Origin: an uncultured Pseudomonadota bacterium
Lineage (GTDB): Bacteria; Pseudomonadota; Gammaproteobacteria; Steroidobacterales; Steroidobacteraceae
Length of the DNA: 43,509 bases
NCBI GenBank assembly: GCA_903858165.1
Contig: CAIOHZ010000230.1
Coordinates: forward strand, 1-43,509
Reading direction: 5' to 3'
Shown in pieces: positions 7,842 through 32,350 of this stretch (position 1 is the first letter of the stretch; every line of letters begins with the position of its first letter). The notes beneath the pieces were generated by a model. That model did no database searches, was not told the DNA's origin, and saw only the letters and a list, made by a program, of their open reading frames with translations. The position numbers were made by a program, and so were the translations under genes.

Positions 7842-7873
7842 GGTGGGAGAAAAACCCCACCAAACCAAAAAAA
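7842..7873 (-). terminator. Likely 3' end and terminator region of rnpB
   Basis: On the minus strand the 3' arm of the RNase P P1 helix is followed almost at once by seven T residues (7867-7873). A perfect 6-bp hairpin follows (arms 7842-7847 and 7856-7861, loop 7848-7855). The P1 helix plus U-run could itself act as the intrinsic terminator, with the following hairpin as backup. Confidence 0.5.
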
Positions 7874-8253
<380 letters not shown>

Positions 8254-23810: not shown

Positions 23811-23902
23811 AGCCTTGGCGTCAAAGCAGCCTAATGGCGGGTAGCCACGCGCCACCCTGCCGGCGCGTTATCATTCCAGCAGTTCCTGCGGAGAATCCCA
23901 TC

Positions 23903-24778
23903 ATGGCCGGTTCGTTGCGTCTGCTTGTCATCAGCGGCCTGTCCGGCTCGGGCAAGTCCGTGGCGCTGCATATGCTCGAAGACCTCGGGTACTACTGCGT
24001 CGACAATCTACCAGCCGGCCTGCTGAACACCTTCGTGTCGCACCTCGTCCGGCACCCCGAAAGCAGCTACGCCCGCGCAGCCGTCGGACTGGACGCGCGC
24101 AACCGTGCCGCCGACCTCGCTGCCATCCCGGGCCTCATCAAGGACCTCCGCCAAGCGGCCATCGACTGCGACGTCCTGTTCCTCCACGCCGATGACGAGG
24201 CCCTCCTGCGCCGCTATGGCGACACCCGGCGCCGCCACCCCTTGGCGCAAGCGGGCCGTTCACTACGCGAAGCCATCGGCGAAGAACGTCGCCTGCTTCG
24301 GCCGGTCACGGACGCCGCCGACCTGGTGCTGGACACCACCCAGACCAGCGTGCACCAGTTGCGCGAAACCATCCGCCAGCGCGTCGACGCACGCCAGAGT
24401 GGACGCCTGTCCATCCTGTTCGAATCATTCGGCTTCAAAGACCGTTTGCCCGCCGATGTCGATTTCGTCTTCGACGCGCGCACCTTGCCCAATCCCTATT
24501 GGGACCCGACCCTGAAGCACTTGATCGGGCTCGATGCGCCGGTAGCCGAGTTTTTGGCCGCCCAACCGGCTGTGACGGAATTTCTCGAGGACGTCGCCAG
24601 TTTCATCGCGCGGCGCATTCCCGCCTATCAGGCGGCCAATCGTGGCTACCTCACCGTCGCCGTGGGTTGCACCGGCGGCCAGCACCGTTCGGTCTACCTC
24701 GTCGACCGACTCGCCGCACGGTTCGCCGCTGAATATCCTGGTGTTCTGGCGCGACACACGGGGCTCGAGCCGCGCTAA
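23903..24778 (+). CDS. rapZ: RNase adaptor protein RapZ (P-loop nucleotide-binding)
   Basis: RapZ binds glucosamine-6-phosphate and small RNAs and, in enterobacteria, guides RNase E to GlmZ, tuning GlmS synthesis. The ATG at 23903 gives 291 residues, preceded by a GGAG site with 9-nt spacing. Walker A is GLSGSGKS (12-19). The C-terminal sugar-phosphate-binding domain carries GCTGGQHRSVYLVDRL (about 257-272). The gene normally follows ptsN and precedes ptsH-like genes; neither is present here, and the next gene starts the accessory operon. Confidence 0.95.
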   Translation: MAGSLRLLVISGLSGSGKSVALHMLEDLGYYCVDNLPAGLLNTFVSHLVRHPESSYARAAVGLDARNRAADLAAIPGLIKDLRQAAIDCDVLFLHADDEALLRRYGDTRRRHPLAQAGRSLREAIGEERRLLRPVTDAADLVLDTTQTSVHQLRETIRQRVDARQSGRLSILFESFGFKDRLPADVDFVFDARTLPNPYWDPTLKHLIGLDAPVAEFLAAQPAVTEFLEDVASFIARRIPAYQAANRGYLTVAVGCTGGQHRSVYLVDRLAARFAAEYPGVLARHTGLEPR

Positions 24779-24884
24779 AAAGCCTTCGCCTGCTGGCGAC
24801 GGCATTGACATTCCCGGCCACACGGGCAATCCTGACATATAAACATTTGTTACGATTTCGCCTCCGGCAGGGAACCCGACGACG

Positions 24885-25934
24885 ATGGCTTACGTTCGCA
24901 ACGCCTGGTACGTGGCTGGCTGGGTCCCCGACCTTGCCCGCGACCGCCCGACCGGCATCACCCTGCTCGGAGAACCGGTGGTGCTTTGGCACACGGGGCA
25001 GCACTGGGCGGCTTTCGAAGACCGTTGCCTGCACCGTTTGGCGCCGTTGTCGCTCGGCCGCTGCGAAGGCGCCCATCTCCGCTGCCTATATCACGGCCTG
25101 CGTTACGATACGGAAGGCCGTGTCGTCGAAATCCCCGGGCAAGAGCGCATTCCGCCGCAAGCCCGCTTGCGCCGCTACCCGGCGGTGGAGCGCCACAGTT
25201 GGCTATGGGTGTGGATGGGCGAACCGGCGAAAGCGGACGAAGCTCTCATTCCGCCCGCCGTCGGTTTTGACGACCCGGCGTGGATTCTGGGGCGTGGTCA
25301 ATTGGACTATGCCGCCGAAGCCCGCCTCATCAACGACAACCTGCTCGACTTCTCACACCTGAGCTTCGTTCACGCTAACAGCTTCGGCGCTACGAGCGTT
25401 TGGGCAGAAGAACACCCGCGCATCACGCCGCTCCCCCGCGGCATCCGTTACGAGCGCTGGGTAGAAAGTTCACCGCCCATGCGCGGCCGCGAACACGCCG
25501 GCCGCGTGGATGGCTGGACACGCTACGACTTCCTCGTTCCCGGCGTGCTGCTCATGTTGGGTGCTCAGTACCCCGAAGGCACCGCGAAGGCCTGCGGGCA
25601 AGGCGAGCCGCCAGAGGATTTGCCTGCATTAGGCAAATCCTTCACCAGCCAAGCGGTGACACCGCTAACGGACAAGACCTCGCGCTACTTTTTCTCCTGG
25701 GGCCCACATCGCACTGTGGGCGATGAAGCCTTGCGCGACATTCTCATGGGCATCGCCGGGCAAGCCTTCGCCGAAGACAAGACGATGATTGAGGCGCAGC
25801 AGCGCGTCATCGATCAGACGCCGAACCCGCGCATCATGCCGACCGCACATGACCGTGCTATCACCTTGTTCAACCAACTGGTAGCGCGCATGGTGCGCGA
25901 AGAAGCCAGCGCCAGCCAAGAGACCGCAACATGA
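24885..25934 (+). CDS. Rieske non-heme iron oxygenase, vanillate O-demethylase-like
   Basis: The 349-residue protein belongs to the one-component-oxygenase branch that includes VanA and dicamba demethylase. Its Rieske 2Fe-2S site is C48, H50, C67, H70 (CLH...CLYH, 16 residues between H50 and C67). The mononuclear iron motif is N152, D155, H158, H163 (NDNLLDFSHLSFVH). These enzymes insert oxygen into methoxyl or other groups of aromatics using electrons from a separate reductase, but no VanB-like reductase gene is in the window. The 106 bp upstream (24779-24884) are relatively AT-rich and hold TTGACA at 24805 and TATAAA at 24838, spaced too far apart to be a normal promoter. The gene overlaps the next by 4 bp. 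The exact substrate is unknown. Confidence 0.88.
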   Translation: MAYVRNAWYVAGWVPDLARDRPTGITLLGEPVVLWHTGQHWAAFEDRCLHRLAPLSLGRCEGAHLRCLYHGLRYDTEGRVVEIPGQERIPPQARLRRYPAVERHSWLWVWMGEPAKADEALIPPAVGFDDPAWILGRGQLDYAAEARLINDNLLDFSHLSFVHANSFGATSVWAEEHPRITPLPRGIRYERWVESSPPMRGREHAGRVDGWTRYDFLVPGVLLMLGAQYPEGTAKACGQGEPPEDLPALGKSFTSQAVTPLTDKTSRYFFSWGPHRTVGDEALRDILMGIAGQAFAEDKTMIEAQQRVIDQTPNPRIMPTAHDRAITLFNQLVARMVREEASASQETAT

Positions 25935-26800
25935 AGATTACCCGCCTCGACACGCCCCACTGCAGTGTTGGCGAAGGCCCGGTTTGGGATGTGGAAGAGC
26001 AGGCGCTCTACTCCATCGACATTCTCGGCAAGTGCATCCACCGCCACCACTTGGCAACCGGACACAACGACCGCTGGGAAGTACCCGGCATCATTGGCTC
26101 GATGGCCTTGCGCACCGGCGGCGGTGCCCTCATCGCCTTGAAGGATGGCGTCCACACTTACGACTTCGCGACGGGCGCCACCGCACCGCTCGCCTGTCCA
26201 CCTGACCAAGATTCGCGCGTGCAGTTCAACGACGGCAAGACGGACCGCTTCGGTCGCTTCATCGTCGGCAGTACGGACGGCACCATGAAAGAGCCCTTGG
26301 GCAGCATCTACTCCGTGGGCGCTAACGGCACGTATCAAGTGCTGGACAGCGGCATCTGCATTAGCAACGGTCCGTGCTGGTCGCCGGACAACCGCACTTT
26401 CTATTTCGCCGACAGCATCCCGAAAGACATCTACGCCTACGACTACGATCCGGCCACCGGCCAAGCGACGAATCGTCAGGTGTTCGCCAACACCGCGGCG
26501 TTCGGCGGCATTCCCGACGGCGCCACGGTGGACACGGATGGCTTGGTCTACAGCGCCATTTGCGAAGGCGGCGTCATCGCCGTGTTCCGGCCGGACGGTA
26601 CCGTGGAGCGCACTATCCCCATGCCCGTGAAGCTGCCCGGCAGCGTCATGTTCGGTGGACCGAACCTGGACCTGTTGTTCGTCACCACGCTGGACCCTGC
26701 GTTCATGGGTCGCACGGATGGTGGTGAAGGTGCTGGCCATACGTTCGTCATCGAAGGGCTCGGCGCACGCGGCCTGCCTGAGGCGCGCTATGTCGACTGA
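25931..26800 (+). CDS. SMP-30/gluconolactonase-family six-bladed beta-propeller hydrolase
   Basis: The 289-residue protein is a member of the regucalcin/gluconolactonase family, which opens lactones with a divalent metal. The four metal-ligand positions are intact: E15 (GEGPVWD), N100 (FNDGKTDRFGR), N146 (SNGPCWSPD) and D196 (PDGATVDTDG). There is no signal peptide, so it acts in the cytoplasm. Within an aromatic-oxidation operon it may hydrolyse a lactone or ester formed during breakdown, but the substrate cannot be read from the sequence. It overlaps the Rieske oxygenase by 4 bp and the MFS gene by 11 bp. Confidence 0.88.
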   Translation: MKITRLDTPHCSVGEGPVWDVEEQALYSIDILGKCIHRHHLATGHNDRWEVPGIIGSMALRTGGGALIALKDGVHTYDFATGATAPLACPPDQDSRVQFNDGKTDRFGRFIVGSTDGTMKEPLGSIYSVGANGTYQVLDSGICISNGPCWSPDNRTFYFADSIPKDIYAYDYDPATGQATNRQVFANTAAFGGIPDGATVDTDGLVYSAICEGGVIAVFRPDGTVERTIPMPVKLPGSVMFGGPNLDLLFVTTLDPAFMGRTDGGEGAGHTFVIEGLGARGLPEARYVD

Positions 26801-28049
26801 AGCCCCCATCAACGCCGACGCACGCCCCGCAGCATCGCTGCCAACCGGGAGTTCGCCCTTACCGCAACGCAGCCCCTTGGGGCTGCTGCTCGTCGTCGTG
26901 TTCATCAACATCGCCGGCTTCAGTTTGGTGCTGCCACTACTGCCTTTCTATGGGCAGGCTTTCGGCGCCACGCCCTTGGGCGTAGCGTGCCTGTTTGCTG
27001 CCTACTCGCTAGGCAACCTCATCGGCGAACCCTACTGGGGGCGCCTCTCGGACCGTATCGGACGCCGTCCCGTACTCATCGCTTCCACAGCGTGCGCGGC
27101 GCTAGGCTATGTGGCATTCGCTTTCGCACCCAACCTGTGGTCCGCCTGCTTGTTACGCGTGGTCGGTGGATTCTTTGGCGGTACCTTGTCCGTGGTACTT
27201 GGCAACATTGCCGACGTCACACCGCCCGCCGGACGCGCCAGGAGCATCGGCTTCTTCGGCGCCGCCTTCAATCTCGGCTTTGTGGCCGGCCCGGCACTGG
27301 GTGGACTACTCGCCGCGCCTGAACTCGGGGCCGCAGGCTACCGTTTGCCACTGTTCGCCGCGGGCGCCTTGGCAGGCGCCGCCTCCCTTTGGGCCCTGCT
27401 GTTCTTGCAGGAACCCGTTCGAGCAGCACGTCCCGCCGCGACAGCTCCCGCCTCGCGGAGTGAAACGCTAGCCTTCGCCTATCACCACCCACTCATTAGC
27501 CGTCTGCTGGGGGTCGGCTTCATCGCCATCCTCACTTTCGCTTCCATGGAGGCGGTGTTCGGCCTGTGGACCAGCCTGCGCTACCAGTGGGGACCCAGAG
27601 AGGTCGGCTTGGCGTTCATCGCCATCGGCCTCGCCGGTGGCATCACGCAGGCCCTGCTCATTGGTCCGTTGGCACGCCGTTTCGGGGAGGCGCGCGTCCT
27701 GGCCGCAGGTGTCATGGTGCTGCTCATCAGCACCCTGCTCATGCCTTGGGCGCCGAACCCAGCGGTGTCGGTGGCGCTGATGGCGCTCCTCATGACGGGG
27801 CACTCGCTCACCTTCCCGAATCTCGGCGCGTTGGTGTCGCGCGCAACGCCGCCCGAAAACCAAGGCGCCGTGATGGGCCTGCAAGGCTCCGTACAAGCGT
27901 TGGCGCGCATCGTGGGGCCGCCGATCCTTGGCTGGACCTTCGGCGCCTTTGGCCCATCCATGCCTTTCCATGTGGCCGCGGTCTTGGTAGCTGTCGCCGC
28001 CTTGCTCGCACTGCGCATCGTGCGTCTGTCTTTCCCTGCCAACCCATAA
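26790..28049 (+). CDS. Major facilitator superfamily transporter
   Basis: The ATG at 26790 gives a 419-residue protein with about 12 hydrophobic segments, beginning after a roughly 30-residue polar N-terminus. The cytoplasmic loop between helices 2 and 3 carries the MFS motif A (GRLSDRIGRRPVL, about residues 85-97). GGFFGGTLSVVLGNIADV and FNLGFVAGPALGG follow, typical of drug-proton antiporter (TetA-like) families. Import of the aromatic substrate or export of a toxic intermediate are both possible. The start overlaps the SMP-30 gene by 11 bp, and the next gene begins 16 bp after its stop, so it is part of the operon. Confidence 0.88.
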   Translation: MSTEAPINADARPAASLPTGSSPLPQRSPLGLLLVVVFINIAGFSLVLPLLPFYGQAFGATPLGVACLFAAYSLGNLIGEPYWGRLSDRIGRRPVLIASTACAALGYVAFAFAPNLWSACLLRVVGGFFGGTLSVVLGNIADVTPPAGRARSIGFFGAAFNLGFVAGPALGGLLAAPELGAAGYRLPLFAAGALAGAASLWALLFLQEPVRAARPAATAPASRSETLAFAYHHPLISRLLGVGFIAILTFASMEAVFGLWTSLRYQWGPREVGLAFIAIGLAGGITQALLIGPLARRFGEARVLAAGVMVLLISTLLMPWAPNPAVSVALMALLMTGHSLTFPNLGALVSRATPPENQGAVMGLQGSVQALARIVGPPILGWTFGAFGPSMPFHVAAVLVAVAALLALRIVRLSFPANP

Positions 28050-28065
28050 ACCGAGACCACCAGCC

Positions 28066-29652
28066 ATGACCCGACCCAGCGACACTTCCTCGGGCCTGCG
28101 TCCGGCAGGAATGAGCGCCGCCACCTTTGCACGGGCCTTGCGCGCACTGGAACAAGCGGTAGGTGCGGAGCACGTGTTCGCGGCTGAAAATGATCGCTAC
28201 GCCTACGCCGACCATTTCGCGGGCGACGAATCGCTGCACCAACCTTGCGGCGCAGTAGCGCCGGCGAACACGGCAGAAGTACAGGCAGTGCTGCGCATCG
28301 CCAACGAATTCGGTTTGCCGTTATGGACCATCAGTCGGGGCAAGAACTTCGGTTATGGCGGCCCCGCACCGGCCCTAAAAGGCTCGATGGTGCTCGATCT
28401 CAGTCGCATGAAGCGCTTCACGGTAGACCGCGAAAACGGCACCGTTCTGGTCGAGCCTGGGGTGGGCTTCTATGACCTCTACGACTACTTGCAGCGGGAA
28501 AAAATCCCGCTGTGGTTATCGGTCCCAGGGAATTCCTGGGGCAGCGTGGCAGGGAATGCCTTGGACCGTGGCGTGGGGTACACCACCTATGGCGACCACG
28601 CAGCGCGCATCTGTGGTTTAGAGGTGGTGCTTCCGGAAGGCGATGTCGTGCGTACTGGCATGGGTGCCATGTCCGGTTCTCCGAACTGGCAACTCTACCG
28701 GCCAGGTTTTGGCCCCTCGTGGGATGCCATGTTCTGCCAGTCGAATTTCGGCGTCGTCACACAAATGGGCCTGTGGCTAATGCCTGCGCCAGAGACCATG
28801 TTGGCGCTGGACTACGAATTCGACCAACCGGAAGACCTTGGCTGGGTCGTCGACACCCTGGCCCCCTTGCGCCGTGAGGGCGTCATCCAGCAGTCGCCTT
28901 CCATCGGCAACTGGCTGCGTGCCGCAGCCGTTATGACCACGCGCAACCAATGGAGCGACCAACCCGGTCAACTACCAGAATCCGCCATCACCGCCATCCG
29001 CAAGCGCTTCGGCATTGGCTGGTGGAGCGTGCAGTTGCGCTTCTATGGGCGCGAAGAAATCACCACCGCCAGCCAGCAAGTGGTGGAACGCGCTTTTGCC
29101 AACAAGCCCGTGCTATCGGTACAGAAGTCGCGTTGGCAGCAAGGCGATGCCCCCCCGCAAAATGCTTGGGCCGGCGCGCCCATCAGTTTTCCCTTGGCTA
29201 ATGCCAACTGGCATGGCGGCCGCGGTGGCCACGTCGGCTATTCACCAGTATTGCCGCCGCGTGGCGACTTGGCGCTGGACCAATTCCATCGCACCGCGAA
29301 GCTCTATGCGGATTACGGCATGGATTATCACGCTAGCTTCGCCATGGGCGAACGCCACCTTACCAATGTGAACCAAGTGCTCTACAACAAGGACGACCCG
29401 GAGATGATGTCGCGTGTCGACCGCTTCTTCCGCGCGTTGGTGAAAGACGCCTCGGCACAACGCTATGGCGAATACCGCACCCATATCGAGTACATGGACT
29501 TGGTTGCCGACAGCTATGACTTCAACGGCCACGCCCTGCGACGCCTGAACGAACGCGTCAAAGATGCCCTTGACCCGCGCGGCATCCTGTCGCCGGGCAA
29601 GAGCGGCATCTGGCCTGCCAACCTGCGCCCCGCCCGCGGAGACCGGAAATGA
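28066..29652 (+). CDS. Vanillyl-alcohol-oxidase/4-cresol-dehydrogenase-family FAD-linked oxidoreductase
   Basis: The 528-residue flavoprotein oxidises the para side chain of phenols. It has the PCMH-type FAD domain (SRGKNFGYGGPAP near 90-102; NALDRGVGYTTYGDH near 164-178; GFGPSWDAMFCQSNFGVV near 214-231) and the FAD-oxidase C-domain ending LDPRGILSPGKSGIWP. By alignment from memory, H389 (GHVGYSP) sits where VAO H422 and eugenol oxidase H390 form the covalent flavin bond. Y470-R471 (EYRTH) matches the substrate-binding Tyr-Arg pair Y503-R504 of VAO. The 4-bp overlap with a c-type cytochrome suggests a dehydrogenase (flavocytochrome) like 4-cresol dehydrogenase or eugenol hydroxylase rather than an oxidase. 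There is no obvious signal peptide; the flavoprotein may be exported bound to its partner or act in another way. Confidence 0.9.
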   Translation: MTRPSDTSSGLRPAGMSAATFARALRALEQAVGAEHVFAAENDRYAYADHFAGDESLHQPCGAVAPANTAEVQAVLRIANEFGLPLWTISRGKNFGYGGPAPALKGSMVLDLSRMKRFTVDRENGTVLVEPGVGFYDLYDYLQREKIPLWLSVPGNSWGSVAGNALDRGVGYTTYGDHAARICGLEVVLPEGDVVRTGMGAMSGSPNWQLYRPGFGPSWDAMFCQSNFGVVTQMGLWLMPAPETMLALDYEFDQPEDLGWVVDTLAPLRREGVIQQSPSIGNWLRAAAVMTTRNQWSDQPGQLPESAITAIRKRFGIGWWSVQLRFYGREEITTASQQVVERAFANKPVLSVQKSRWQQGDAPPQNAWAGAPISFPLANANWHGGRGGHVGYSPVLPPRGDLALDQFHRTAKLYADYGMDYHASFAMGERHLTNVNQVLYNKDDPEMMSRVDRFFRALVKDASAQRYGEYRTHIEYMDLVADSYDFNGHALRRLNERVKDALDPRGILSPGKSGIWPANLRPARGDRK

Positions 29653-30077
29653 GGTTCCCTCGCTTGAACACCAAACGCCCCGTGGCTCCGCCAACGACTC
29701 GCTTGGCAGCACCAGTGGTCACCTCGTTGGCTTGGCTATGCTTGGTGACCGCCGCGGTGTTAGCACCGAATGCCCTAGCCGCCGGCGGTCCGACTGAGCG
29801 CGGCGCCGCGCTGTTCGAGGAGAAATGCGCCATGTGCCACCGCGTCATGGGGATGGGCACCGTACTGCTGACGCGCCGTCGCGAACCGGCCACCGCACTG
29901 CTGGAAAAGCGTACCGACCTGACTCCCGAGTTTGTGGTGGCAGCAGCGCGTGCGGGACTCGGCAACATGCCGCGCATCAGTCGGGGCGAAGTCTCCGACA
30001 CTGATCTGGCCACCATCGCCGCCTGGCTGGCAGTGCCGGCCGCAGCGCCAACTGTGGCCGCGCCTGCAGCAAATTAA
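29649..30077 (+). CDS. Small c-type cytochrome, probable electron-accepting subunit of the flavoprotein
   Basis: The 142-residue protein has a long N-terminal signal sequence (hydrophobic core about 22-42, cleavage near NALAAGG), one CAMCH heme site (about 60-64), and a probable methionine ligand in GLGNMPRIS (about 106). An Ala/Pro-rich tail follows. It overlaps the flavoprotein gene by 4 bp. This arrangement matches the PchF/PchC and EhyB/EhyA pairs, in which a periplasmic cytochrome takes electrons from reduced FAD and passes them to the respiratory chain. It ends 12 bp before the convergent tldD gene; no terminator is visible between them. Confidence 0.88.
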   Translation: MRFPRLNTKRPVAPPTTRLAAPVVTSLAWLCLVTAAVLAPNALAAGGPTERGAALFEEKCAMCHRVMGMGTVLLTRRREPATALLEKRTDLTPEFVVAAARAGLGNMPRISRGEVSDTDLATIAAWLAVPAAAPTVAAPAAN

Positions 30078-30089
30078 AGAGGGGCCACC

Positions 30090-31526
30090 TTAGCCGCCTG
30101 TCCCACCAACGGTCAGGGAATCAATACGCAGCGTCGGTTGCCCCACGCCCACGGGTACGCTTTGGCCTTCCTTGCCACAGGTACCGACGCCCGCATCCAA
30201 CTGCAAGTCATGGCCCACCATCGACACGCGCGTCAGCACGTCAGGGCCATTACCGATGAGCGTGGCGCCCTTCACCGGGCGCGTGACGCGTCCACCTTCG
30301 ATGAGATAGGCCTCACTGGCCGAAAACACGAACTTGCCGGAAGTGATGTCGACCTGCCCGCCACCGAAGTTGACGGCGTAGAGCCCATCGCGCACTGACT
30401 CGAGAATTTCCGCCGGATCGTGGGGGCCGGGACGCATATAGGTGTTCGTCATGCGAGGCAGGATGGGGCTGGCAAAGGACTCCCGCCGACCATTGCCGGT
30501 GGGCGCCACTCCCATCAGGCGGGCATTCTGCTTGTCTTGCAAGTAGCCGCGCAACACACCGTCTTCGATGAGCGTGGTGCACTGGGTAGGCGTGCCTTCG
30601 TCATCAATGTTCAACGAACCGCGGCGTCGGTCCAGCGTGCCGTCGTCAACGACGGTACACAGCGGGCTGGCCACCTTCTCACCGATGCGTCCGGCAAACG
30701 CCGAAGTGCCTTTACGGTTGAAGTCCCCTTCCAGACCGTGACCAATCGCTTCATGCAGCAAGATGCCGGGCCAACCGGCCGCAAGCACCACCGGCATGGT
30801 GCCGGCGGGGGCCGCTACTGCCTCAAGATTCACTAAAGCTTGCCGCACGGCTTCGCGCGCCAAGGCTTCGCCACGTTCCAGCGTCAGCAGTTCATCCAGG
30901 CCGTACCGACCACCCGTGCCTTGGTAGCCTTGCTCGCGCCGGCCATCTTTCTCGACGATGACCGACACGTTCATGCGCACCAAGGGGCGCACATCCGCCG
31001 CGAGCGTGCCATCCAGCGCCGCCACCAGTATCACTTCGTGTGAACCGACGATGCTCGCCATCACTTGCTTTACCCGTGGGTCCTGCGCGCGCGCATAACG
31101 GTCGACGTGCTCCAGAAAGGCGACCTTGTCGGGGTCGCTGCGCGTAGCCACCGGGTCATCGGCGAGGTAAAGGCTTTTGCCTTCTCGCGCCTTAAAGGCC
31201 TGTACGGGTGCGCCCTGCCCACCTTGGCGGGCGATGGCACGCGCTGCACGCGCAGCCTCCAGCAAGGCGTCTCTGGAAAGTTCATCGGAATACGCAAAGC
31301 CCGTCTTTTCCCCCGTTAGTGCCCGCACTCCCACGCCTTGCTCGATGCTGTGCGCACCATCTTTCACCGTGCCGTCTTCCAGCGACCAACTTTCCGAACG
31401 GCCCGACTGGAAGTACAGGTCGGCGTCATCGACACCCGCGCTGGCGACCAACCCCAGCGCCTCCTGGAGATCGGATAAAGAAAGCCCAGCGGGCTCGAGC
31501 AAACGGGATTGGGCAAGTTTCAGCAA
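30090..31526 (-). CDS. tldD: Metalloprotease subunit TldD
   Basis: TldD, with PmbA/TldE, forms a zinc protease that degrades or matures peptides such as microcin B17 and CcdA. From a TTG start at 31526 the product is 478 residues, close to E. coli TldD (481). Its zinc motif HEAIGH is at 258-263. The N-terminus reads [16 protein letters not shown], with [18 protein letters not shown] as in the family. No ATG or GTG gives a sensible start; upstream in-frame sequence would run deep into the nitrilase gene. TTG is preceded by GAGG and overlaps the nit stop by 7 bp. The partner pmbA is not in the window. Confidence 0.93.
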
Positions 31527-32350
31527 GAGGAGGACCTCGACAGAACGCGGTTTTGCAAACAGGGAAAGGATACACGCGTGGCTTGCTGGGCTTCGCGGTC
31601 CAGTGCGGCCAGAACGACGCCCTCGCCACGTGGCCGACGGGACAGTACACGCCCCCAAGGGTCGATAATCAGACTATCCCCGTAAGTCTCGCGGCCATTC
31701 GCGTGCACGCCACTCTGGGCAGGCGCCAGCACGAAACAAAGGTTCTCGATGGCCCGCGCACGCAGCAGCACTTCCCAGTGGGCACGGCCGGTGGGCGCCG
31801 TGAAGGCCGACGGAATCGTGAACACTTCAGCGCCAGCGGACACCATCTCGCGATACAGCTCCGGAAAGCGCATGTCGTAGCAGACACTGAGCCCCACGCG
31901 TCCAATGGGCGTATCGACCAGAGCGACCTTGCCGCCGGGCGAAATATGGTCCGACTCGCGGTAGCGCTCCGCGCGTCCGGGCAGGTCCACATCAAACAGG
32001 TGAATCTTGTCGTAACTCGCCACCGTTCGGCCTGCCGCATCGTAGACCGGGCAGCAGGCCGCCGGGCGTGCGTCACCCGCCACGGTGACAGGAATGGTGC
32101 CGCCCACAATCCACAAACCCAAGCGCGCTGCCGTTTCCGCAAGGAAGCCTTGGATGGGGCCGCTGCCTTCAGGTTCTGCTGCTGCACGGCGCGCCGCATC
32201 GTTACGCGGCATCAGCGCGAAATTCTCGGGCAGTACCGCCAGCACGGCCCCGCCGGCTTTAGCAGCGGCCAACCATTTGCCCGCCACCGCAAGGTTGTCG
32301 GATACCGTATCACCCGAGGTCATTTGCACCACGGCAGCCACCAAATTCAT
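31520..32350 (-). CDS. Nitrilase-superfamily carbon-nitrogen hydrolase (deaminated-glutathione-amidase-like)
   Basis: The 276-residue protein has the catalytic Glu-Lys-Cys triad of the nitrilase superfamily: E42 (PENFAL), K115 (YDKIHLFD) and C157 ([10 protein letters not shown]). The [10 protein letters not shown] signature and flanking sequences match the Nit1/YbeM branch, whose members hydrolyse deaminated glutathione as metabolite repair. Cytoplasmic; no signal peptide. It sits between yhdP (4-bp overlap) and tldD (7-bp overlap). This tldD-nit-yhdP order is conserved in Pseudomonas and relatives. The assignment to the deaminated-glutathione branch is by similarity only. Confidence 0.92.

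Follow-up and report, generated by a model that had tools for sequence, protein, structure and literature searches.

A five-gene operon between rapZ and tldD, predicted to serve flavocytochrome oxidation of a lignin-derived phenol

The locus described here, a run of five closely spaced genes between rapZ and tldD in the genome of an uncultured Steroidobacteraceae bacterium, raises the question of whether the five gene products act together and, if so, on which compound. The window, by which the whole analysed stretch of 43,509 nucleotides is meant (contig CAIOHZ010000230.1 of GenBank assembly GCA_903858165.1), is contig C230 of the source genome, G000 (3.38 Mb in 307 contigs). The operon was found to be real and functionally coherent, and it is a variant of flavocytochrome phenol oxidation rather than a separate kind. 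The module is proposed to be catabolic and to act on a 4-hydroxyphenyl compound derived from lignin; this compound is probably guaiacyl and most likely a lignan, a dilignol or a fragment of either, a reading that we regard as an even call. The five genes are as follows.

24885..25934, +: ROX, Rieske [2Fe-2S] oxygenase of the VanA_C/DdmC type, 349 aa (Pfam Rieske 70.9 bits, VanA_C 108.6 bits; DdmC alignment)
25931..26800, +: SGL, hydrolase of the SMP-30/regucalcin/gluconolactonase type, 289 aa (Pfam SGL 250.1 bits; alignments to 7plb and regucalcin)
26790..28049, +: MFS, DHA1/TetA-like transporter, 419 aa (MFS_1 183.5 bits; NCBIfam Tet(A)/(B)/(C) 190.5 bits, cut-off 475)
28066..29652, +: VAO, 4-phenol oxidoreductase of the VAO/PCMH family, 528 aa (Pfam FAD_binding_4 and FAD-oxidase_C; structure matches; residue alignment)
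29649..30077, +: CYT, small c-type cytochrome, 142 aa (Pfam Cytochrome_CBB3 46.2 bits; 4-bp overlap with VAO)

The five open reading frames (ORFs) are joined by overlaps of 4, 11 and 4 bp and one 16-bp gap, and are flanked by genes for RapZ (23834-24778, +) and TldD (30090-31658, -), both assigned by Pfam. Genes, coordinates, order, overlaps and flanks had been proposed in a sequence-only reading of the window, and all were recovered from the ORFs, from Pfam (applied to 47 proteins, of which the window supplied seven) and from a GC-frame script, which returned the same five genes and gave MFS a longer start; the start used here is an ATG inside a longer mechanical ORF (26655-28049). Gene calls in unannotated loci were taken from the same script, which in places chose shadow frames or early starts. 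The base composition is like that of the neighbours, as the sequence-only reading had also held: GC content of the five genes is 0.616-0.662 against 0.635 for the window, and flanking genes have codon-usage distances of 0.187-0.360, four operon genes 0.274-0.343 and the short CYT 0.409, so that a foreign base composition was rejected.

Flavoprotein, cytochrome and the other operon products

VAO was placed in the VAO/PCMH family by its FAD_binding_4 domain, its overall similarity, a phenolate-binding Tyr and a Tyr-Arg pair. Its closest solved structures are those of VAD from Marinicaulis flavus (480-484 bits), followed by 4-allylsyringol/eugenol-oxidase types and PCMH. Tyr97 and Tyr470-Arg471 correspond to VAD residues in the alignment, and were equated with Y91, Y471 and R472 of EUGO (PMC11148156, cited like all articles here from part of its text) by motif rather than by an EUGO alignment. 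No signal peptide was seen by eye. The flavin N5 site is formed by Gly155-Asn156, the place of flavin adenine dinucleotide (FAD) linkage by His389, and an extra Arg386 precedes the His in a GGRGGH loop. Among the seven enzymes tabulated in PMC7617285, the N5 pair is Asp/Glu-Leu in the reference enzymes VAO, EPO and EUGO, Asp-Pro in VAD, Thr-Ile in EUGH, Thr-Val in nsVAO and Ala-Pro in PCMH, and the pair in the window differs from all seven. Three assignments were rejected at this site: the 4-phenol oxidase type (VAO, EUGO, EPO), in which Asp/Glu-Leu would be expected; the VAD-type dehydrogenase signature, for which the His is present but Gly-Asn stands instead of Asp-Pro; and the type of PCMH and EUGH (eugenol hydroxylase), in which Ala-Pro or Thr-Ile accompanies a Tyr-linked FAD in place of Gly-Asn and His389.

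Of 92 aligned VAO rows, 67 share Gly-Asn, and each of these also has the His and the Arg, while one further row has Ala-Asn with both; the remaining 24 have other N5 pairs, and the Arg is found in none. These 68 rows form one clade among the 92 (SH-aLRT 99) in a quickly built tree that carries a single support value and has long branches flagged, and from which rows shorter than 400 residues or with the same core were excluded. The tree in PMC7617285 also contains a pinoresinol-hydroxylase clade (PinH), which the Gly-Asn clade could be or could contain, its separation being from the seven tabulated enzymes only. VAO thus belongs to a cytochrome-linked branch of phenol-oxidising enzymes distinct at the N5 site from those seven. 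In a class-wide sample of 369 genomes, VAO was matched at E<=1e-150 in three, namely its own and two with more distant members, one with Gly-Asn and one with Ala-Asn. Because the P151N mutant of VAD has no O2 activity but keeps dye-linked activity (0.14 versus 0.44 per second; PMC7617285), the Asn in VAO suggests a dehydrogenase, an analogy drawn across a different neighbouring residue (Gly for Asp).

CYT has a signal-like hydrophobic N-terminus (by eye), a CAMCH haem motif and an NMP motif. Among 42 loci with VAO relatives, mostly from sphingomonads and above all from Erythrobacteraceae, a CYT match was found in 39, and the other three (L071-L073) end inside VAO. The 4-bp overlap of VAO and CYT is present in the window and in 27 of the 39 loci; in the other 12 the script chose another start. 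This supports the prediction that VAO is the flavoprotein of a flavocytochrome with its own cognate cytochrome c gene. Separately, in many sphingomonads the gene after CYT encodes a small protein whose start is twin-arginine-like (match in 22 of 42 loci; L138:13913-14440, L036:11961-12509 and L198:11330-11725, with no Pfam match for those of L138 and L198) and is absent from the window operon.

ROX keeps the CxH/CxxH and the HxxxxH and EDK motifs of Rieske O-demethylases in the DdmC alignment, which we take to hold the ligands of the cluster and, as His-His-Asp, those of the mononuclear iron site. SGL was assigned to the SMP-30/gluconolactonase family, and its Glu, Asn and Asp align in the 7plb and regucalcin alignments with what are presumably the metal ligands of regucalcin. 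MFS scored 52 bits with the model of aromatic-acid:H+ symporters (TIGR00895, cut-off 418.55), so that an aromatic-acid uptake symporter was rejected, and 190.5 bits with the Tet/DHA1-type model (cut-off 475), with every Tet cut-off shown being missed; it is of the same broad type as Tet(A) pumps only. Since the cut-offs of both kinds of model were missed, the direction of transport was left undecided, and the uptake that had been proposed for MFS was not sustained. The broader proposal of aromatic oxidation did hold at the level of family assignment, with a VAO/PCMH flavoprotein beside its own cytochrome c gene, a VanA/DdmC-like oxygenase and an SMP-30-type hydrolase.

Recurrence of the parts and the site of insertion

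The order SGL-MFS-VAO-CYT was found in three sphingomonad genomes (L035 in G463, L196 in G499 and L197 in G541), and SGL-VAO-CYT without MFS in a fourth (L198 in G465); the 11-bp overlap of SGL and MFS in the window is seen again in L196. The VAO proteins of these four cassettes and of the two copies in the window's genus form one clade (6 rows, SH-aLRT 99), from which a single origin of the cassette and its later transfer between lineages, in either direction, are inferred. In a sample of 369 genomes of the window's class, SGL was matched at E<=1e-75 in its own genome alone. The sphingomonad SGL genes were found by tblastn over loci gathered for other purposes, so that there are at least four such cassettes and at least the one ROX-SGL pair described below.

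ROX was matched at E<=1e-50 in 13 of 98 genomes, its own included, and at an identity of at least 56% in four (G000, G003, G010 and G054). Its co-occurrence with VAO was examined in 18 sphingomonads with a VAO match at E<1e-200 (all such genomes in a sample of 149) and in the 18 that came first in the list of those lacking a match at E<=1e-60. A ROX orthologue (E<=1e-100) was present in 11 of the 18 with a Gly-Asn VAO, ten at 60-67% identity and one at 51%, and in 0 of the 18 without VAO (p 1.1e-4), a comparison of related genomes unmatched for lifestyle; with G462 and G465 removed, in which ROX had been known beforehand, the counts are 9 of 16 versus 0 of 18 (p 2.2e-4). ROX lies 6-13 kb from VAO in G462, G465 and G534, lies 0.8 kb from an SGL gene in G531 with a TetR gene between, and in G463 faces a lignostilbene-type dioxygenase gene in convergent orientation. 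Five more loci, L215-L219, were extended around ROX and showed neither VAO nor a lignostilbene-type dioxygenase within about 8 kb. A Rieske-type ferredoxin reductase gene lies near ROX in G465, and G000 has a relative of such a reductase (44%) elsewhere than in the operon. In G054 (L125) the ROX relative (56%) is grouped with NmrA, GMC, metallo-beta-lactamase-fold and GcvT-type genes. Linkage and co-occurrence elsewhere thus support a putative functional link among the oxygenase, hydrolase, flavoprotein and cytochrome. A TetR-type gene was also seen divergent from ROX in six sphingomonad loci (L162, L216-L219 and L222, only L222 being Pfam-checked), and none was seen between rapZ and ROX in the window.

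Lignin-type genes recur around the VAO relatives. In the 42 loci a lignostilbene-type dioxygenase was found in 31, an NmrA reductase, the type to which we take PinZ of the pinoresinol pathway to belong, in 31, and both in 30; aldehyde dehydrogenase was found in 29, a pyrroloquinoline quinone (PQQ) dehydrogenase-cytochrome in 27, a SnoaL/NTF2 protein in 25 and a DUF3237 (PinX-type) protein in 14. The SGL-linked cassette of L198 sits amid lignostilbene-type dioxygenase, GMC and aldehyde dehydrogenase genes, and none of these was found within 19.9 kb in L196 and L197. Genes for HpaB-type flavin hydroxylases were noted near sphingomonad VAO genes of the Gly-Asn type (L198:6715-8181 by Pfam, L142:3457-5076 by look at the sequence only). 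G000 itself encodes two homologues of lignostilbene dioxygenase (59% and 37% relative to the query) and has, at 2635-10128 of L149 (G000:C148:24000-43000), genes for NmrA, DUF3237, CoA-transferase III and GMC oxidoreductase proteins with a PCMH-type VAO (Ala-Pro), which would make L149 a second lignin-dimer-type locus, much like the pin gene set. A third VAO of G000 lies with a GcvT-type gene on an 11.5-kb contig (L148).

The full five-gene order was found at the same place in L032, at 94-99% protein identity, and in no other locus examined beyond G000 and genome G003, L032 and G003:C18 being one locus. The sequence-only reading had called for a search for this order elsewhere; the search thus yielded one full copy, with parts alone recurring in sphingomonads. 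L032 belongs to the window's genus, and the label of its metagenome-assembled genome, Janthinobacterium lividum, looks doubtful. In its full form the operon is confined so far to part of one genus, being present in two of four members compared (G000 and G003). In G001, whose RapZ is 97% identical, 3 bp separate the rapZ and tldD stop codons and the operon is absent, and in G002 (RapZ 84-85%) an mgtE-like gene lies between rapZ and tldD. Of 26 further relatives, 11 have a match to mgtE in the 1.5 kb that follow rapZ (L095, L096, L098, L100, L102, L104, L105, L106, L115, L117 and L119; in L104 only the start of mgtE, about 1.2 kb from rapZ). Because mgtE follows rapZ in G002 and in these 11, it is probably the older neighbour; either mgtE was lost and the operon gained in the line of G000 and G003, or the operon replaced mgtE and was then cleanly lost in G001. 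The suggestion that the operon may be long resident is not sustained by this distribution.

The intervals on either side of the operon are as follows.

24779..24884, +: rapZ-ROX intergenic region, possible promoter or operator by its sequence, containing the short palindrome AACATTTGTT
30078..30089, no strand: 12-bp gap between the convergent ends of CYT and tldD, the right edge of the insertion relative to G001

The upstream region (24779-24884) has a near-identical copy in L032. A consensus scan gave no sigma-70-type promoter, terminator-like sites were not above chance (5 observed versus 5.1 in shuffles), and an RNA element at the locus was rejected, the best Rfam match having an E of 0.22 (18 bits versus a gathering score of 39). 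Elsewhere in the window, a class A bacterial RNase P RNA was found at 7873-8253 (-; 309.1 bits).

Candidate substrates

We infer a route for the operon, down to each reaction, the reaction order, the lactone, the redox partner and the choice of a dimer over a monomer, in which VAO would remove a hydride from the benzylic carbon to give a para-quinone methide, the course of the VAO/PCMH family (PMC7617285, PMC12607616). As a dehydrogenase rather than an oxidase, it would pass the electrons to the coupled CYT and thence to the respiratory chain. The quinone methide might then be hydrated, lose a side-chain carbon or be internally trapped, and SGL would open a lactone arising on the route, such as a lignan gamma-butyrolactone. 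A lactonase would fit a lignan route because, as a matter of chemistry, a gamma-butyrolactone arises when one CH2OH group of an adjacent pair is oxidised. A ferredoxin reductase encoded elsewhere would supply ROX with the electrons to O-demethylate the methoxy ring, and a Rieske demethylase fits guaiacyl rings; MFS would carry substrate or product across the inner membrane in either direction.

A lignan or dilignol is favoured as the substrate, and the main rival is a 4-alkylguaiacol or 4-alkylphenol (ethyl, propyl or allyl), to which we give a real but lesser chance. VAO-CYT would then hydroxylate the benzylic carbon to an alcohol or ketone, SGL would hydrolyse a later lactone or ester, and ROX would demethylate the guaiacyl ring. 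VAO relatives (60-62%) of the Gly-Asn type, with CYT, are divergent from acetovanillone (hpe) genes in two of the 42 loci, L056 and L065 (= L127 and L128; genomes G056 and G023); the hpe-type set comprises genes for a PEP mobile domain, PPDK_N, biotin carrier, biotin carboxylase, carboxyltransferase and HAD phosphatase (Pfam-checked in L128), and the pathway acts on acetovanillone and 4-hydroxyacetophenone (PMC9618137). By look, the hpe-linked loci are also near genes resembling those for coenzyme A (CoA) transferase and 2-hydroxyacyl-CoA dehydratase, as annotated in L137. In L124, outside the 42, hydantoinase A/B genes stand beside VAO-CYT, and both kinds of neighbour suit a monomeric ketone product; the substrates of VAD include vanillyl alcohol and eugenol (PMC7617285). 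However, the HpeH query gave in G000 nothing beyond a 94-residue match to the PEP mobile domain (HpeI was not searched), by which an hpe-type downstream route in G000 was rejected, the hpe-linked VAO rows group with sphingomonad dimer-cluster rows rather than with the SGL-linked clade, and the SGL-linked L198 has the lignin-dimer-type surroundings that L196 and L197 do not show within 19.9 kb. Since the sphingomonad loci in which the parts recur mostly also contain genes of the lignin-dimer type, the 4-alkyl or 4-allyl monomer of the sequence-only reading is no more likely than a lignan or dilignol. The N5 pair is not that of eugenol hydroxylase.

Other explanations were given less weight. A substrate other than lignin (for example a phenolic steroid, a herbicide or a plant glycoside), with the lignin-type neighbours coincidental, would suit the closest solved relative of ROX, dicamba O-demethylase (119.7 bits), and its best NCBIfam match, methylsterol monooxygenase (65.8 of 600 bits, far below the cut-off), and we consider it unlikely in view of the lignostilbene-type dioxygenase, NmrA, DUF3237 and GMC genes that are linked or co-occur. 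Detoxification of a toxic phenol by oxidation, demethylation and efflux through a TetA-like pump, instead of growth on it, is improbable: the best scores of MFS are with Tet/DHA1 efflux models but fall far below their cut-offs, and the TonB receptors, aldehyde dehydrogenases and dioxygenases of related loci suit growth substrates. That the five are chance neighbours without shared function is hardly credible, even with the exact order found only in two genomes of one genus, given the overlapping starts, the recurrence of SGL-MFS-VAO-CYT in sphingomonads and the ROX-VAO and ROX-SGL linkages elsewhere.

Several observations, with the hpe and hydantoinase neighbours, weigh against a lignan or dilignol module. 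The shared neighbours of the 42 loci are not independent, the loci being mostly sphingomonad; lactonase activity does not follow from the fold of SGL; and neither SGL nor MFS was found on the short contigs of L011/L124 and L033/L126 (67-70% relatives from the window's own family) and of L034. No partner reductase or ferredoxin gene is among the five operon genes. ROX orthologues are missing from 7 of the 18 sphingomonads with a Gly-Asn VAO, the 18 genomes compared with them may just be weak in aromatic degradation, ROX lies within 13 kb of VAO in just 3 of the 11 genomes with both, and no ROX match at E<=1e-40 was obtained in G464, to which L033 belongs.

More tentatively, and with well under an even chance of both parts being right, the Gly-Asn clade may form a subgroup of its own among 4-phenol dehydrogenases, cytochrome-linked, His-flavinylated, widespread in Proteobacteria and not assayed to date, and SGL-(MFS)-VAO-CYT(+ROX) may be an undescribed lignan or dilignol route through a lactone opened by an SMP-30-type enzyme, which would have passed between sphingomonads and the lineage of the window and been condensed into a single operon in the latter. 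The same parts are present in cultured sphingomonads, so that the function is open to direct test.

Comparison with known systems

The author of the sequence-only reading knew of no described pathway with exactly this set of genes, and none was found in searches of an open-access library either. The acetovanillone (Hpe) pathway is represented by the hpe-type sets beside two VAO-CYT relatives, whereas no HpeH-type kinase was found in G000. DdmC and VanA share with ROX the Rieske and VanA_C domains and, for DdmC, aligned iron-site motifs, at 119.7 bits between ROX and DdmC; the window operon is without a reductase or ferredoxin gene. PCMH (PchF/PchC) likewise pairs a flavoprotein of the same family with a cytochrome c, but has Ala-Pro and a Tyr-linked FAD (PMC7617285) where the window has Gly-Asn and His. 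VAD of Marinicaulis flavus (8s7 series) is a dehydrogenase that shares the aligned FAD-linking His with the window VAO, and differs from it in Asp150-Pro151 against Gly155-Asn156 at N5 and in the extra Arg of the GGRGGH loop, which is the window's.

The closest parallels are with pinoresinol catabolism. The route of Novosphingobium rhizosphaerae LY comprises PinZ, PinY (GMC), PinX (DUF3237), the coupled PinW-PinV and the lignostilbene-dioxygenase-like PinU (PMC12607616, PMC12997858). Genes for NmrA, GMC, DUF3237 and dioxygenase proteins recur near the VAO relatives or in G000, the likeness of the NmrA, DUF3237, GMC and RPE65-family proteins of G000 to PinZ, PinX, PinY and PinU being, like that of the window VAO to PinW, one of description rather than of sequence. 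In the portion of PMC12607616 consulted, neither an SGL nor a Rieske gene is named as part of the pathway, no transporter has a significant fitness effect, and a ferredoxin reductase has a partial role. PinV-PinW, which act at the imperanene step, are likewise a VAO/PCMH flavoprotein coupled to a small cytochrome c. In Pseudomonas sp. SG-MS2, the pinoresinol-alpha-hydroxylase PinA-PinB is a co-translated flavoprotein and cytochrome of the same family (PMC12997858, PMC11148156), and this enzyme, compared by description only, could lie inside the Gly-Asn clade.

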